Assembly: GCA_013152205.1 (NCBI GenBank)
Contig: JAADGV010000054.1
Location: 1 to 64,000 of the forward strand
Reading direction: 5' to 3'
Origin: Planctomycetota bacterium
GTDB lineage: Bacteria > Planctomycetota > Planctomycetia > Pirellulales > Lacipirellulaceae
DNA length: 64,000 nucleotides
A program made the position numbers and the translations under genes. The notes under the pieces were generated by a model. It searched no databases and was not told the origin of the DNA. It saw only the letters and a list, made by a program, of their open reading frames with translations. Shown one piece after another: positions 13,650 through 61,682 of this stretch; position 1 is the first letter of the stretch; every line of letters begins with the position of its first letter.

Positions 13650-13701
13650 CCCTGGGCGTCGAGTATGTATTGGATAGACGTCGTTATAACGATAGTTAGG
13701 T
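13650..13701 (+). other. attI-like integron recombination site, copy 1
   Basis: This block of about 50 bp ends in the core GTTAGGT (13695-13701), where the first cassette joins. It matches a block at 61276-61329 (other strand) over about 45 bp with few differences, and identity stops at the GTTA of the core in both copies, as expected for a site-specific crossover point. The second copy lies directly before an integron-integrase-like start, which identifies the block as attI rather than attC. An inverse core-like TATAACG lies just upstream of GTTAGGT. No integrase gene is adjacent at this copy. Confidence 0.7.
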
Positions 13702-13735
13702 ACCAATTCTAAACCCAAATAGAAAGACACTCACA

Positions 13736-14182
13736 ATGACTGACTCTAATTCGCCTTGCCAATCCTGTGGCGACGACCAAGCCGTGCGAATCACGGACGA
13801 TGAATGTGTTGCGACGCTTCACACAATTCCCCTGTCACTTGATTTAGCCCTCGTCGCGCTTCAAGTCAAAGACAAAGCCATGATTGTAAATGATAAACTA
13901 CCTGCGGGACACACGGTGAACGAGAAGGACGGCATCATTACCATCGTGATGTTCGAAACCCCATCCGATCCAATTGACTTGTCTGAGGTGATGGTATGCA
14001 CTGAAAAAGCGCGTCATAAGGCTATCGGTGATGGTGGTGTCTGGAATCCGCGAACATTTGGATGCGACAGTCGTACTTGTTCGGTCGATTGTGGGAATGC
14101 AAGTTGCTCATCCATAATGGGCATCTGCAAACGCCGATTCGACTCAGTCTGTACATCAATAATCCGATGCATTAGATGTTAA
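13736..14182 (+). CDS. Cassette 1 product: Cys-rich hypothetical protein
   Basis: The 148-residue protein is of unrecognised family. The N-terminal part has CQSCGDD (about residues 8-14) and a mixed alpha/beta stretch up to about residue 95. The last 50 residues contain nine further cysteines (CDSRTCSVDCGNASC, then CKRRFDSVCTS and CIRC). No signal peptide or membrane segment is obvious. The whole gene lies inside one integron cassette: 35 bp after the attI core and ending 16 bp before the R'' core of its attC. Metal binding is suggested by the cysteines, but no function can be assigned. The Cys-rich tail could also reflect a frame change near codon 100. Confidence 0.6.
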   Translation: MTDSNSPCQSCGDDQAVRITDDECVATLHTIPLSLDLALVALQVKDKAMIVNDKLPAGHTVNEKDGIITIVMFETPSDPIDLSEVMVCTEKARHKAIGDGGVWNPRTFGCDSRTCSVDCGNASCSSIMGICKRRFDSVCTSIIRCIRC

Positions 14183-14198
14183 CGGGCACGCTATTGGT

Positions 14199-14288
14199 AC
14201 CTAACAAAAAAATGCACCCGAGCGGCGAAGTTGGGCGTTTTCAAGTGGACAATCTCTCATCGCCGCCGGGTGATTTTGGTCGTTGGGC
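14199..14288 (+). other. Integron attC site of cassette 1
   Basis: R'' = ACCTAAC (14199-14205) and R' = GTTGGGC (14282-14288) enclose a stem: GCACCCG-A-GCGGCGA pairs with TCGCCGC-CGGGTG, leaving one unpaired A as the typical extrahelical base. Length is 90 bp. R'' is exactly complementary to GTTAGGT, the first bases of this same cassette at 13695, as required for a cassette excised as a circle. Confidence 0.85.
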
Positions 14289-14324
14289 GGACAGGGGATG
14301 CTGTCCACAGAGGTGGTGACTCCA

Positions 14325-14930
14325 ATGGAATGGCTAACTGATCCGGAGCACTGGGCGTACTGGGGTGGTTGGGTGCGAGGGCTTGTCCTTCTCGCCGTGC
14401 CCCTGGCAGGTGCCCTCTTGCTGAAGCTCTTGGCTCGGCTCTGTAGGTCCAAGAAACAGTATCCATTGGTCAATGACTGGTGGGAGTACCACTTTTCAAA
14501 GAAAGACGGCGAACTCTGCGTGCTTGAGAGCAAGATTCGAATCACTCTCGGAATAATAAATGTACTGCGCGTTGGAATTACGCAAGGTGCGGGTCTTTCC
14601 TACGCTGGGTGCGTTCGAGTCGAAAAGGGGACAACCCAGTTCCTTCTTCAGGTGAGGTCGAAGAATCCGGACGTCGACGAGTTCGCCCAATATCGCTACG
14701 AGAACTCCATCGATAGCAGCCCCCAACTATTCATTGGGATAAACACATCGTACGTCCACGAAAGAAATGCATACGCTTCTTCATCGATAATGTCGGCGAT
14801 TCAGCTGGATCTCGACACAGCCGAGACGAAGCTTAAAGAGACTATTCTTGATACCCATGGCCTACCGATCCTGCTGTTGAAGAAACAGTTGCCGGCAGGC
14901 ACTGAGCGCAGTGCGGAGGCAGCCCCGTGA
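14325..14930 (+). CDS. Cassette 2 product: membrane-anchored beta-rich hypothetical protein
   Basis: The protein has 201 residues from ATG 14325, chosen for the GAGGTG Shine-Dalgarno 9 bp upstream; ATG 14298 would add 9 residues. One transmembrane segment (GLVLLAVPLAGALLLKLL) lies near residues 18-40, after WAYWGGWVR. The cytoplasmic part starts WWEYHFSKKDGELCV and alternates predicted strands (RITLGIINVLRVGIT, YAGCVRVEKG, FLLQVRS, LFIGINTSYVH) up to ILLLKKQ. The architecture of a membrane anchor plus a small beta-rich domain resembles some phage-defence effectors (for example Cap15-like), but no family was recognised. Location in an integron cassette fits an accessory or defence role by inference only. 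Confidence 0.6.
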   Translation: MEWLTDPEHWAYWGGWVRGLVLLAVPLAGALLLKLLARLCRSKKQYPLVNDWWEYHFSKKDGELCVLESKIRITLGIINVLRVGITQGAGLSYAGCVRVEKGTTQFLLQVRSKNPDVDEFAQYRYENSIDSSPQLFIGINTSYVHERNAYASSSIMSAIQLDLDTAETKLKETILDTHGLPILLLKKQLPAGTERSAEAAP

Positions 14931-14952: not shown

Positions 14953-15017
14953 GCCCAACAAGGCGATGCAGACGGACGGCCGCTTCGCGGCCGCCGCTGA
15001 TCGCCGAGGCGTTATGC
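14953..15017 (+). other. Integron attC site of cassette 2
   Basis: R'' = GCCCAAC (14953-14959) and R' = GTTATGC (15011-15017) bracket a 65-bp fold-back: GGCGAT / ATCGCC, CAG / CTG and CGGCCGC / GCGGCCG with a TTC-type tip. R'' is exactly complementary to GTTGGGC, the first bases of cassette 2 at 14282. It starts 22 bp after the stop of the cassette 2 gene. Confidence 0.9.
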
Positions 15018-15030
15018 GACAAGGCACATC

Positions 15031-15726
15031 ATGTCCGATAACAAAACCGAAAAGACCATCTGGGTGATGTGTGCGTCATGCGGACACAACCACCGAAATC
15101 ATCGCGTGCTGCACGAGAAGGTAAAGCGCTACACCGATGAACCGTACGGGGCCGTGATGAGCATCGAATATCACCGGTTCGTCGAATGTATGGGTTGCGA
15201 ATCGCTCAAGTACGTCACGAGCACTCAAGACCCCCTCGAACACGACCCTTACGAAGATGGAGAGCGAGACTTCAAGGTATACTCAGACGCGCCGGGGACC
15301 GTCGCACGCCGCGCCGCAAGTATCTCTTCGGATGACCTTTGTGGTGATGATGGTACACCGCTGATCCCGAAAACCGTATGGAAAATGTACAAAGAAACGC
15401 TCGACGCCCTGAACGGCGGCATTCGTACACTGTCAGCCGGAGGCTTACGTGCAACTGTTGAAGCTATCTGCCTCAATTTGGGAATCACCAACGGAACGCT
15501 GCAGCAGAAGATCGACGAATTGGCCACTCAAAACCTGCTGACTACCCCACAAGCTGCGCTGCTTCACGAAGAAAGGTATCTTGGAAACGCTGCACTTCAC
15601 GAGTTGGAGACACCGTCTAGTCAAGCCATTGAAGACGGGCTCGGTATTGTGGAGGGCCTCATGAATACAATCTATATCTTGCCAAAGAAAGCAGAGCGTT
15701 TGCGAAACCTTCGGCAAGGATCGTAG
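15031..15726 (+). CDS. Cassette 3 product: zinc-ribbon plus DUF4145 protein
   Basis: The 231-residue protein starts at an ATG with AAGG 6 bp upstream, 14 bp after the cassette core. The N-terminal part carries CASCGHN (about residue 14) and ECMGCESLKY (about 53), a two-CxxC zinc ribbon. The C-terminal part (about 130-225) follows the DUF4145 pattern: GGLRATVEAICLNLGI, LQQKIDELATQNLLT, LLHEERYLGNAALHE and GLGIVEGLMNTIYILPKKA. DUF4145 occurs alone or fused to restriction-type endonucleases and is common in mobile defence loci; its molecular role is unknown. Carriage in an integron cassette fits that pattern. Family assignment is fairly confident, function is not. Confidence 0.8.
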   Translation: MSDNKTEKTIWVMCASCGHNHRNHRVLHEKVKRYTDEPYGAVMSIEYHRFVECMGCESLKYVTSTQDPLEHDPYEDGERDFKVYSDAPGTVARRAASISSDDLCGDDGTPLIPKTVWKMYKETLDALNGGIRTLSAGGLRATVEAICLNLGITNGTLQQKIDELATQNLLTTPQAALLHEERYLGNAALHELETPSSQAIEDGLGIVEGLMNTIYILPKKAERLRNLRQGS

Positions 15727-15748
15727 TCTGAATGCTGCGCATAGTGTC

Positions 15749-15795
15749 GCATAACAAATCGGTGCACGGGAGCCGATTCGCCTTCCGGCCAGATT
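15749..15795 (+). other. Truncated attC of cassette 3
   Basis: R'' = GCATAAC (15749-15755) is followed by an L''-like arm (AAATCGGTGCACGGGAGCC), but no matching L'/R' arm or GTTRRRY core follows before the chromosomal gene that ends at 15812. R'' is exactly complementary to GTTATGC, the first bases of cassette 3 at 15011. The array therefore ends in a broken site, and the cassette may be unable to excise. Confidence 0.7.
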
Positions 15796-41269: not shown

Positions 41270-41322
41270 CTTGATTGCTCCTTGCAAACACGGTTACAGA
41301 ATTGGGTTCTTCAGGTATTTTA

Positions 41323-41430
41323 GTGGCTGAACATTGCTTAGTGGCTGAACATTGCTTAGTGGCTGAACATTGCTTAGTGGCTGAACATTGCTTAGTGGCT
41401 GAACATCGCTTAGTGGCTGAACATCGCATC
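41323..41430. repeat. Six tandem copies of an 18-bp unit
   Basis: The unit gtggctgaacattgctta is repeated head-to-tail: four identical copies (41323-41394), then one with atc for att (41395-41412), then a last one ending catc (41413-41430). It lies 5' of the DUF1553 gene, within its leader or promoter. There are no spacers, so it is not a CRISPR array. The count of repeats is probably variable between strains. Confidence 0.95.
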
Positions 41431-41770
41431 GAAGCAGCAAAGCTGCTTCTGCCCCAAAGGGGCAAAACATCATAGCCTGGGGCAAGGCAAGCGAGCATCG
41501 CGAGGCTTGCCGCCGCCCTAGGTTAATTTGCGTCAATGCCTTCGGCCGAGTTTCAGTTCGGCCAACTCACCGGCACGCAGCCGAGGCCGAAACTCATCCG
41601 CGGCTTGATTTCGTCCTCGGCAACGCTCCGTTGTTAAATCACGCTGTCCTCTCGGACAATTGTTCGGTTGCTTACTAACCCAGGGCGACGCCAACCTTTG
41701 CTGCGCTTCGGTTGGCTCTGCCCTGGGCTTTCATATTTTGCCCTTTTCAGGGCATTTGGTCCCCTAGCCA
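41431..41770. repeat. Composite palindromic non-coding repeat region
   Basis: This gene-free stretch is made of small palindromes: gcagcaaagctgc, gccccaaaggggc, ggccgagtttcagttcggcc, and a long fold-back in which CCCAGGGC and CCAACC (41680-41696) pair with GGTTGG and GCCCTGGG (41710-41730). It ends with gcccttttcagggc. Such REP-like composites occur in many planctomycete and Bacteroidetes intergenic regions. No transposase is present. Confidence 0.6.
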
Positions 41771-43954: not shown

Positions 43955-44048
43955 GTTGAAATTGTGCCACCACATCTGGGAGAATAGCGATCAGATTTTA
44001 GCCGTGAGCGATCAGCTTTTTCGTCATTCGTCATTCAGATTTCGTCAT
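43955..44048 (+). repeat. About 95-bp dispersed repeat, copy 1
   Basis: Starting gttgaaattgtgccaccaca and ending ttcgtcatt, this block matches 61590-61682 on the same strand at roughly 85-90 percent identity by eye (ccaccac-tctggga-aatagcg-tcag-ttttagccgt). Beyond it, both sites continue with similar AT-rich 'tccgcattccgaa', 'aaatcaaaaatc' style text until a gene end or start (hemH here, lpxA there). Confidence 0.85.
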
Positions 44049-44290
44049 TGATAACGCCCAAATGGACAATATTTTTCCCTTCCGCACTCCGATTTCCGCA
44101 TTCCGAACTCCCTTTTGTCCACCTCAATGCGTTTTCCCCGCGTTTCGTGCCAAAACTAACCCACCAAACACTACGATACCAGCACCAACCCACACAATTT
44201 TGTCCAATAAAGTCCCCCCAGCCGCTCGCGGCTTAGCCAAATCAAAAATCTTAAATCAACAATCAAACATCCCCCACTCCCCCCAATGCC

Positions 44291-60423: not shown

Positions 60424-60595
60424 CAATTCTTTCGTCTGACAATTACTCTCTGGCAAGAGCACTTCGGGAGACGCCAACGGGGCATGAAGAATTGGAGACG
60501 AGAAACTCTATTTTCGACCAAAAACGTATCCGTGTTAATACATTCCAACTCGGATGCTCAGCATAAAGGCTTGATCGACAACGGGTTAGGTAAAG

Positions 60596-60637
60596 TGGAG
60601 GATAGCGGGCTCGAACCGCTGACCTTTTGGCTGCCAG
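60596..60637 (-). tRNA. 3'-half fragment of a tRNA-Ala (GGC), attachment-site-like
   Basis: Reading the minus strand there is an anticodon loop CTGGCAG (anticodon GGC), then 3' anticodon-stem CCAAA, variable loop AGGTC, T-arm AGCGG-TTCGAGC-CCGCT and acceptor 3' side ATCCTCC-A. No matching 5' half (D-arm, 5' acceptor, TTTGG anticodon stem) is present upstream of it; foreign sequence begins at 60638. A tRNA 3' half alone is the usual scar of an integrative element's attachment site. It cannot be a functional tRNA. Confidence 0.8.
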
Positions 60638-61088: not shown

Positions 61089-61281
61089 CCTAAACTCCGG
61101 TCAGCATCCGTTCTGAGAATACCGGCGGCTTCCAACCGCCGAGCCTTTCTTCATCCCAAGTCGATTGAATTTCCTTGCAGAGTTCTGCAATCTCTTCGAG
61201 CGTGGGCAAGTAGACGACCCGGCTGCCTCTGTTGCCCGGGGTGCGCCTACTAGATAGTCGTCCCTGATGTTGAGGGCATAA
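61089..61281 (-). pseudogene. Remnant of a small conserved planctomycete gene next to attI copy 2
   Basis: An open frame without any start codon runs from the attI core to a TAG at 61089. Its meaningful part reads TPGNRGSRVVYLPTLEEI, then ELCKEIQSTWDEERLGGW, ending FSERMLTGV. 'RVVYLPTxEEI...C..IQ..W' resembles a family of about 60-residue planctomycete hypothetical proteins. It may be a first cassette or chromosomal DNA joined at the core. It lacks a start and is probably dead. Confidence 0.5.
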
Positions 61282-61329
61282 CTATAATTATAACGACGTC
61301 TATCCAATACATACTGGACGCCCTGGGGG
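61276..61329 (-). other. attI-like integron recombination site, copy 2
   Basis: On the minus strand, a block ending in the core GTTATGC (61276-61282) matches the 13650-13698 block over about 45 bp; the shared region includes gtatgtattggatagacg and tcgttataa. Homology ends at GTTA, as at a recombination crossover. On its other side, six bases away, a divergent integron-integrase-like reading frame starts, which is the standard intI/attI geometry. Confidence 0.75.
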
Positions 61330-61334
61330 AAAGC

Positions 61335-61448
61335 ATGTCAGCAATGTACAGCAACTTGGGAAAGAGGGCAAATTTTGCCAAACCACCTCGACTATTGGAC
61401 CGAATGCGGCAAGTGTTACACACAAGACACTGCAAGACAAACCCGTAA
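61335..61448 (+). pseudogene. intI: N-terminal fragment of an integron integrase gene (intI)
   Basis: From ATG 61335 the frame encodes 37 residues: MSAMYSNLGKRANFA, then KPPRLLDRMRQVLHTRHCK, then TNP and a stop. 'KPPRLLDRMRQVLHTRHC' matches the start of integron integrases (consensus about KP.LLDRVREAIR.RHYS.RTE.AYV). The catalytic tyrosine-recombinase domain and the IntI-specific insert are absent; after the stop the sequence turns into AT-rich repeats. The gene has thus been truncated to its head. Its divergent position from the attI-like block is diagnostic. Confidence 0.7.
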
Positions 61449-61486
61449 AAGCTTGTTTTCTTGACACAATTTTTTGAAAGAAGCGA

Positions 61487-61575
61487 ACCGCTAATCAACG
61501 CGGATAATCGCTAATCGCAGGTCGGTTTTTCACATTTCGTTCACCTATTAGCGTGTATTAGCGCTGATTAGCGGT
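61487..61575. repeat. Dispersed hairpin of the 'cgctaatcaacgc' type
   Basis: The arms accgctaatcaacgcggata (from 61487) and attagcgctgattagcggt (to 61575) are inverted copies with further gctaat/attagc strings between them. Its architecture is the same as the other intergenic hairpins of the window, with a different arm sequence. Confidence 0.7.
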
Positions 61576-61589
61576 CCCCTTTTTTTGTT

Positions 61590-61682
61590 GTTGAAATTGG
61601 GCCACCACTTCTGGGACAATAGCGGTCAGCTTTTAGCCGTTAGCCATCAGATTCCGTCATTCGTCATTCGGATTTCGACATT
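61590..61682 (+). repeat. About 95-bp dispersed repeat, copy 2
   Basis: The partner of 43955-44048: gttgaaattgggccaccact ... cgtcattcgtcattcgga. It differs by scattered substitutions and one gap. It sits directly after the 61487 hairpin and before a 340-bp gene-free AT/CA-rich tract (61683-62017) that ends at the lpxA stop. Confidence 0.85.

Follow-up and report, generated by a model that had tools for sequence, protein, structure and literature searches.

The attI site and the intI head at 61.3 kb

The window (the whole stretch of 64,000 nucleotides that was analysed, part of contig C89 of the assembly) carries a putative attI site, which we call type A, at 61279–61327 on the minus strand. 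Within the window, this block on the plus strand is identical at 45 of 49 positions to 13698–13650 on the minus strand (E ~1e-14), and the two inverted arms are 47,580 nt apart, in agreement with an earlier reading of the DNA from its letters only, which had placed an inverted recurrence of the block 47 kb away. Across the genome assembly, which totals 4.6 Mb in 130 contigs and is 93.4% complete, the block is found only at 13.65 kb, at 61.3 kb and at C127:37563–37713. These three copies have three different first neighbours; the block runs on into GTTATGCC on the minus strand at 61 kb, into GTTAGGTACC at 13.7 kb and into GTTATGTTG on C127. A DNA search of plasmids returned no match. The core of the 61-kb site, GTTATGCC, lies at 61275–61282 on the minus strand and the same core is present on C127; crossover would be expected between 61282 and 61281 and a cassette array would run leftwards from there. 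As had been proposed, the block is probably an attI site, because a similar block precedes the intact intI of the related genome G023 (score of 39 against a shuffle maximum of 26) and true attC sites follow the copy at 13.65 kb.

An ATG at 61335 starts 8 nt past the block and reads away from the would-be cassette side. The attI thus directly adjoins intI, with the block of G023 and the type-B core of G017 as parallels. The type-B heads have about 100 nt more between attI and ATG, and the spacer missing at 61 kb should be the part that carries the intI promoter. The open reading frame extends from this ATG to a TAA at 61446–61448 (37 codons, MSAMYSNLGKRANFAKPPRLLDRMRQVLHTRHCKTNP). The stop after 37 codons seen by the sequence-only reading is real, but only codons 1–32 (33) derive from an integrase: the CKTNP tail and the stop codon belong to a dispersed repeat that begins at about 61433, inside codon 33. 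The intI head itself (MSAMYSNLGKRANFAKPPRLLDRMRQVLHTRH, 61335–61430, plus strand) is homologous to heads in G008 and G001, to those on C86 and C127 of the same genome and to the intact IntI of G017.

The window peptide alone (33–37 aa) has no matches among the NCBIfam and Pfam models, being too short for any model to score, and its identity was therefore compared via longer sister heads. Sister species supply its closest relatives, attI-linked intI heads with which it shares 74% of residues over 34 aa (E 1e-10). One of them, the 49-aa head of G008:C53, matches only two of the 18,950 NCBIfam models, both of them 'integron integrase' models (E 1e-5), and has Phage_int_SAM_4 as its Pfam match. 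The more distant, full-length relatives of this head found in a scan of prokaryote genomes are, outside the genus, genuine IntI proteins of Lacipirellula limnantheis, betaproteobacteria, Phormidesmis and Shewanella; three of them, together with the IntI of G017, score 438–470 bits against TIGR02249. The G017 protein (438 bits) begins with MASIYRAPEAGAIIAQPPRLLDAVREALRAKHYAYRSEQAY and is matched by the window peptide. Since the sister head matches integron-integrase models only, the window head can be regarded as a remnant of IntI and not of another tyrosine recombinase, which bears out its earlier identification as the N-terminus of an integron integrase.

Two matches from Acidobacteria to PPRLLDRMRQV were rejected: they are unrelated WYL-type proteins, and the 12-residue stretch that they share, EPPRLLDRMRQV, is attributed to chance.

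The repeat that interrupts intI and the surrounding DNA

The intI gene is truncated by a repeat (61433..61589, plus strand) that starts with AAGACAAACCCGTAAAAGCTTG and here lacks its own 3' hairpin (GCGGCCAAAGGCCGC). This repeat of ~160 bp has ~30 copies in the genome, spread over some 30 contigs, which were aligned; most of them sit after a CTCTG-like (C-N-CTG-like) sequence, and full copies end in GCGGCCAAAGGCCGCGCTG. Judging from its copies and ends, it appears to be MITE-like. Like dispersed repeats of the MITE type, it is short and non-coding, is present in ~30 copies, bears a 3' hairpin and is inserted after a C-N-CTG-like sequence in other repeats. Members of the family have a common 5' end, a variable palindromic middle with ATTAGCG motifs and the 3' hairpin, and are often nested in another repeat, CCACAGAGGACACGGAG. 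Elsewhere in the window, an 18-bp unit (TTAGTGGCTGAACATTGC) is tandemly repeated five to six times at 41302–41445.

The MITE-like repeat is followed by a second dispersed repeat (GTTGAAATTGGGCCACCACTTCTGGG..., 61590–61682, plus strand), an 86% match to 43955–44049, which is also found after the C127 head. A remainder of intI downstream of the MITE-like repeat was considered and rejected: none follows in the window, and an intact IntI used as query matches only residues 1–33 at C127, where DNA other than intI comes after the repeat. The loss of intI is not accounted for by insertion alone, and deletion or recombination between repeat copies would have had to follow it at 61 kb.

On the cassette side, the attI core adjoins debris (61090–61274, minus strand) that holds the C-terminal part of a small ORF (..VYLPTLEEIAELCKEIQSTWDEERLGGWKPPVFSERMLTGV) and no attC; a fuller copy of this ORF, with a 95% DNA match over part of it, lies on C20. 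No attC was detected at the 61-kb locus by cmsearch with R1, a covariance model built from six attC sites of the same genome, and no promoter-like site reading leftwards, toward the cassette side, was found within the attI/head segment. Of the complete intI, with its IntI-specific patch and catalytic domain, that a functional integron requires, only codons 1–32 are left. The locus is dead as an integron, and the loss of its integrase had been correctly recognised from the letters.

Further left, 60558–60637 (minus strand) resembles the 3' half of a tRNA gene and has counterparts at three places next to tyrosine-recombinase genes; ARAGORN found no complete tRNA to the left of the block.

The attI site and cassette array at 13.7 kb

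The other type-A attI of the window (13650–13698, plus strand; core GTTAGGTA at 13695–13702) has no intI and is followed by cassettes on its right. The first cassette carries an ORF of 148 aa (13736–14182, plus strand), cysteine-rich and without a Pfam match, and is followed by an attC site at 14199–14288 (plus strand), which scores 110.2 bits and is among the six used to build R1. The second cassette encodes 215 aa (14283–14930, plus strand; listed with a TTG start, a later start being likely) and its attC, at 14953–15017 (plus strand), is of a short type that was not used to build the model (21.7 bits, E 0.0012). The ORF of the third cassette (231 aa, 15031–15726, plus strand) encodes a DUF4145 protein (Pfam PF13643, E 4e-12). 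The array ends at 15748–15780 (plus strand) with what appears to be a truncated third attC, its left part (CATAACAAATCGGTGCACGGGAGCCG), that was recognised by eye and not reported by cmsearch. The model also finds at least five attC sites, with scores of up to 95.5 bits, next to the intact intI of G017, although no sequence of that genome went into its construction. At 13.7 kb as well as on C127, attC sites follow attI in the right orientation. With at least two attC sites and no neighbouring intI, the 13.7-kb array qualifies as a CALIN; the 61-kb locus does not.

Other integron loci of the genome

The genome contains at least six attI sites (C89:13650, C89:61279, C127:37563, C86:11962, C115:27339 and C65:34630) and five truncated intI heads of three types (61 kb, C127, C86, C115 and a degenerate one on C111). 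The C111 head (IKLFDQVRQKLRAGHNA*RTEQSYVR) resembles yet another IntI type. Arrays of attC sites with no located attI are present on C23 and C35. No IntI above cut-off was found in the 93.4%-complete assembly, only Xer-like and other tyrosine recombinases, although an intact intI could be missing from its 130 contigs, which tend to break at integrons. Matches to TIGR02249 in this genome were examined and rejected as IntI, since the two best fall on the XerC/XerD-like genes and all the rest are weak tyrosine recombinases.

The 61-kb and C127 loci are 92–93% identical in DNA over a stretch that starts at the attI core, spans the ORF and enters the repeat, and they have the same MITE junction. 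The 61-kb head is a duplicate of the C127 head, and a duplicated attI, the second of two origins that had been offered for the pair of blocks, is the correct one.

On either side of the C86 integron, ~110 bp from the 3' end of a host gene are present as a direct duplication (L010, near 5330–5200 and 3105–2985). One family of cassette proteins (~160 aa), which by eye looks PIN-domain-like, is found repeatedly in different arrays of this genome and of G008 (L162:7658–8137, L163:10778–11104, L165:7854–8339 and L168:4817–5299).

Integrons in related genomes

Two complete integrons serve as references for the attI types: that of G023 (L062) for type A and that of G017 (L060/L173) for type B. G017, which belongs to the same family, has an intact IntI, a type-B attI core upstream of intI and attC sites of up to 95.5 bits. 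Among 44 genomes of the family, 26 matches to heads were found, 18 of them in frames of at most 176 aa, some of which may be cut by contig ends, and the other 8 in frames of at least 304 aa. In G008, G001, G012, G002 and G011, the codon at which the head breaks off varies, as does the DNA that it runs into. Among the 14 genomes of the genus, no intact intI with exactly the head type of the window was found, though the heads look recently functional.

C65, with a bare attI and one cassette, and G008:C53, with an attI, a head of ~50 codons and several attC sites, have common flanking genes (54–80% aa identity). As they lie between the same flanking genes, they represent one ancestral integron at two stages of erosion. 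The intact integron of G006 is present in two copies of 3,884 bp, 99.2% identical and ~2 Mb apart, so integron platforms do duplicate.

The G006:C1 copies are located at L171:8254–12134 and L172:14890–18770 (~2.048 and 4.117 Mb), and sequences around TGATGCAACCGC at the two ends of the unit are related, so that the unit may have moved when dispersed repeats recombined. G012 contains four bare attI-like sites without a head (C437:4767, C128:8028, C137:6254 and C214:968), three of which are followed downstream by a motif resembling ATTGTAGCAAAATC, as if the attI belonged to a longer conserved unit. A recurring feature of type-B heads (e.g. L080, L079 and L078) is a palindrome-like stretch (GTATACATGCGTACAT and variants) 40–60 nt upstream of the intI start that is absent at 61 kb and C127 and could be a regulatory operator.

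Origin of the 61-kb locus

The feature at 61 kb is most probably the head of a dead chromosomal integron, consisting of an attI site and 32 codons of intI cut by a MITE-like repeat, with debris on its cassette side; on the sequence comparisons made here, we give this reading a probability of roughly 0.87. It is best read as one of several integron platforms of this Pirellulales (Lacipirellulaceae-like) genome that were duplicated and have each lost the integrase. The dN/dS ratios are 0.04–0.18 between heads of different integrons and ~0.5 for the two recent duplicates, one of which has a stop codon, these estimates being rough as they come from 32–41 codons only. This pattern fits an intI that was under selection until recently and then decayed.

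It is unlikely that such heads are still of use: the attI and the start of intI could hold a cassette promoter or serve as a landing pad for an integrase acting in trans from a plasmid or an unassembled locus, and would then be retained although the cell can do without the remainder of intI. Most attI loci still carry cassettes with good attC sites, the three type-A copies differ in their first neighbours, cassette ORFs related to one another are found in separate arrays of this genome and in G008, and the heads show conservation of the coding type. Recent loss of a once-functional intI explains this conservation equally well. Moreover, headless bare attI loci (C65 and 13.65 kb) also keep cassettes, the 61-kb locus has none and its attI/head segment has no promoter-like site reading leftwards. 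More speculatively still, the family might keep dispersed attI platforms without integrase on which cassettes land in common, with one integrase or a few, perhaps on a plasmid or in unassembled DNA, acting on them in trans and the head being retained for the cassette promoter. If this were true, the integron of this genome would be distributed over many places and would not be a single array.

The sequence-only reading had also considered that an old integron was split by rearrangement. A single inversion between the two attI copies would have left the cassettes at 13.7 kb and the intI head at 61.3 kb. This proposal accounts for two inverted copies 47.6 kb apart, one with cassettes only and the other with intI only, and the region has indeed been rearranged among species, since genes located at 35–36 kb in the window are next to hemB in G001, G004 and G006. 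However, rluD would lie within the inversion and hemB beyond it, yet their orientation to each other is unchanged in two outgroups, G006 and G004, which makes a single inversion between the attI sites of the window unlikely. Furthermore, another contig bears a copy of the 61-kb head that is 93% identical and has the same MITE, the genome contains at least four more attI loci, and the 13.65-kb attI continues past the shared 49 bp into a short stretch, ATTCTGCATAA, which matches the attI flank of G023 and not the head. The split has therefore been abandoned as very improbable.

It is hardly credible that the head recurs on C127 and C89 only as an artefact of assembling a genome from a metagenome: the assembly is a draft of 130 contigs and repeats often break assemblies, but the copies differ by ~7%, have different insertions and flanks, and the same is seen across the genus, the single-contig genome G006 included. 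The chance placement of a dispersed repeat beside a random short ORF, to which the mere 37 codons, the end within a repeat and the 12 residues shared with WYL-type proteins of Acidobacteria could lend some colour, is practically negligible: over 34 aa the peptide is 74% identical to heads reaching into the SAM-like domain of IntI, several species have the head at this same place beside attI, and the matches have E of 1e-10 to 1e-30.

Returning to a dead integron head among duplicated platforms, its history may be pictured as follows. Sequence comparison shows the starting point, a complete intI-attI-cassette platform, as still seen in G017, and the multiplication of platforms by duplication, as in the two 3.9-kb copies of G006 with their 99.2% identity. 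At each locus, intI would then be lost independently through insertion of dispersed repeats and recombination between them, attI and useful cassettes persisting longer; such recombination may have removed what remained of intI, and the cost of an integrase may have led selection to act against it. The end states, which comparison likewise shows and which are both found in this genome, are a bare attI with cassettes (13.65 kb and C65) or an attI and a stub without cassettes (61.3 kb).

The genus offers a natural series of stages (intact, recently duplicated, beheaded and bare attI), with one locus at two stages in two species, which makes it possible to ask how fast integrases are lost, which events bring this about and whether cassettes remain mobile once the integrase has gone.

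Comparison with known systems

Integron remnants in Planctomycetota are under-counted, as stubs and bare attI sites go unseen by standard tools, which look for intact intI and attC. IntegronFinder 2.0 does not detect attI outside class 1 (PMC9024848), so stubs like the one at 61 kb are easily missed. In its scheme, the arrays at 13.7 kb and on C23, C65, C111 and C115 resemble CALIN in bearing attC sites without a functional integrase, but those at 13.7 kb and on C65, C86, C115 and C127 keep a recognisable attI. The 61-kb locus, with an attI and no attC, is neither a CALIN nor an In0.

The complete integron of G017 shows what such a locus may once have been. It has likewise an attI core (AACTTGTTATTA), the same leader at the N-terminus of IntI (MASIYRAPEAGAIIAQPPRLLD versus MSAVYRNLGEGANPAKPPRLLD) and attC sites of the same type; unlike at 61 kb, its intI is intact and is then followed by five or more cassettes.

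The closest known situation is that of pseudo-integrons. According to published work, roughly a third of intI genes are pseudogenes, multiple intI genes occur in 20% of the bacteria that have integrons, and some pseudo-integrons arose by intragenomic duplication (PMC2426708); recurrent loss of intI has been described in Xanthomonas (PMC12444791). As in the genome studied here, related lineages lose intI independently, through stops, frameshifts or large deletions, while attI and cassettes stay (Nemergut et al. 2008, PMC2426708; PMC12444791), and several intI genes may occur per genome, with duplication as one source (PMC2426708; PMC12444791). A paper on the multi-locus pattern in Pirellulales was not found in the limited literature looked at. 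The present case differs from described pseudo-integrons in that one genome has, at five loci, N-terminal stubs that are very short and belong to three IntI types, in addition to bare attI sites, and this in Planctomycetota. Taken together, the pattern is best read as one of a known kind that is unusually numerous in Pirellulales.
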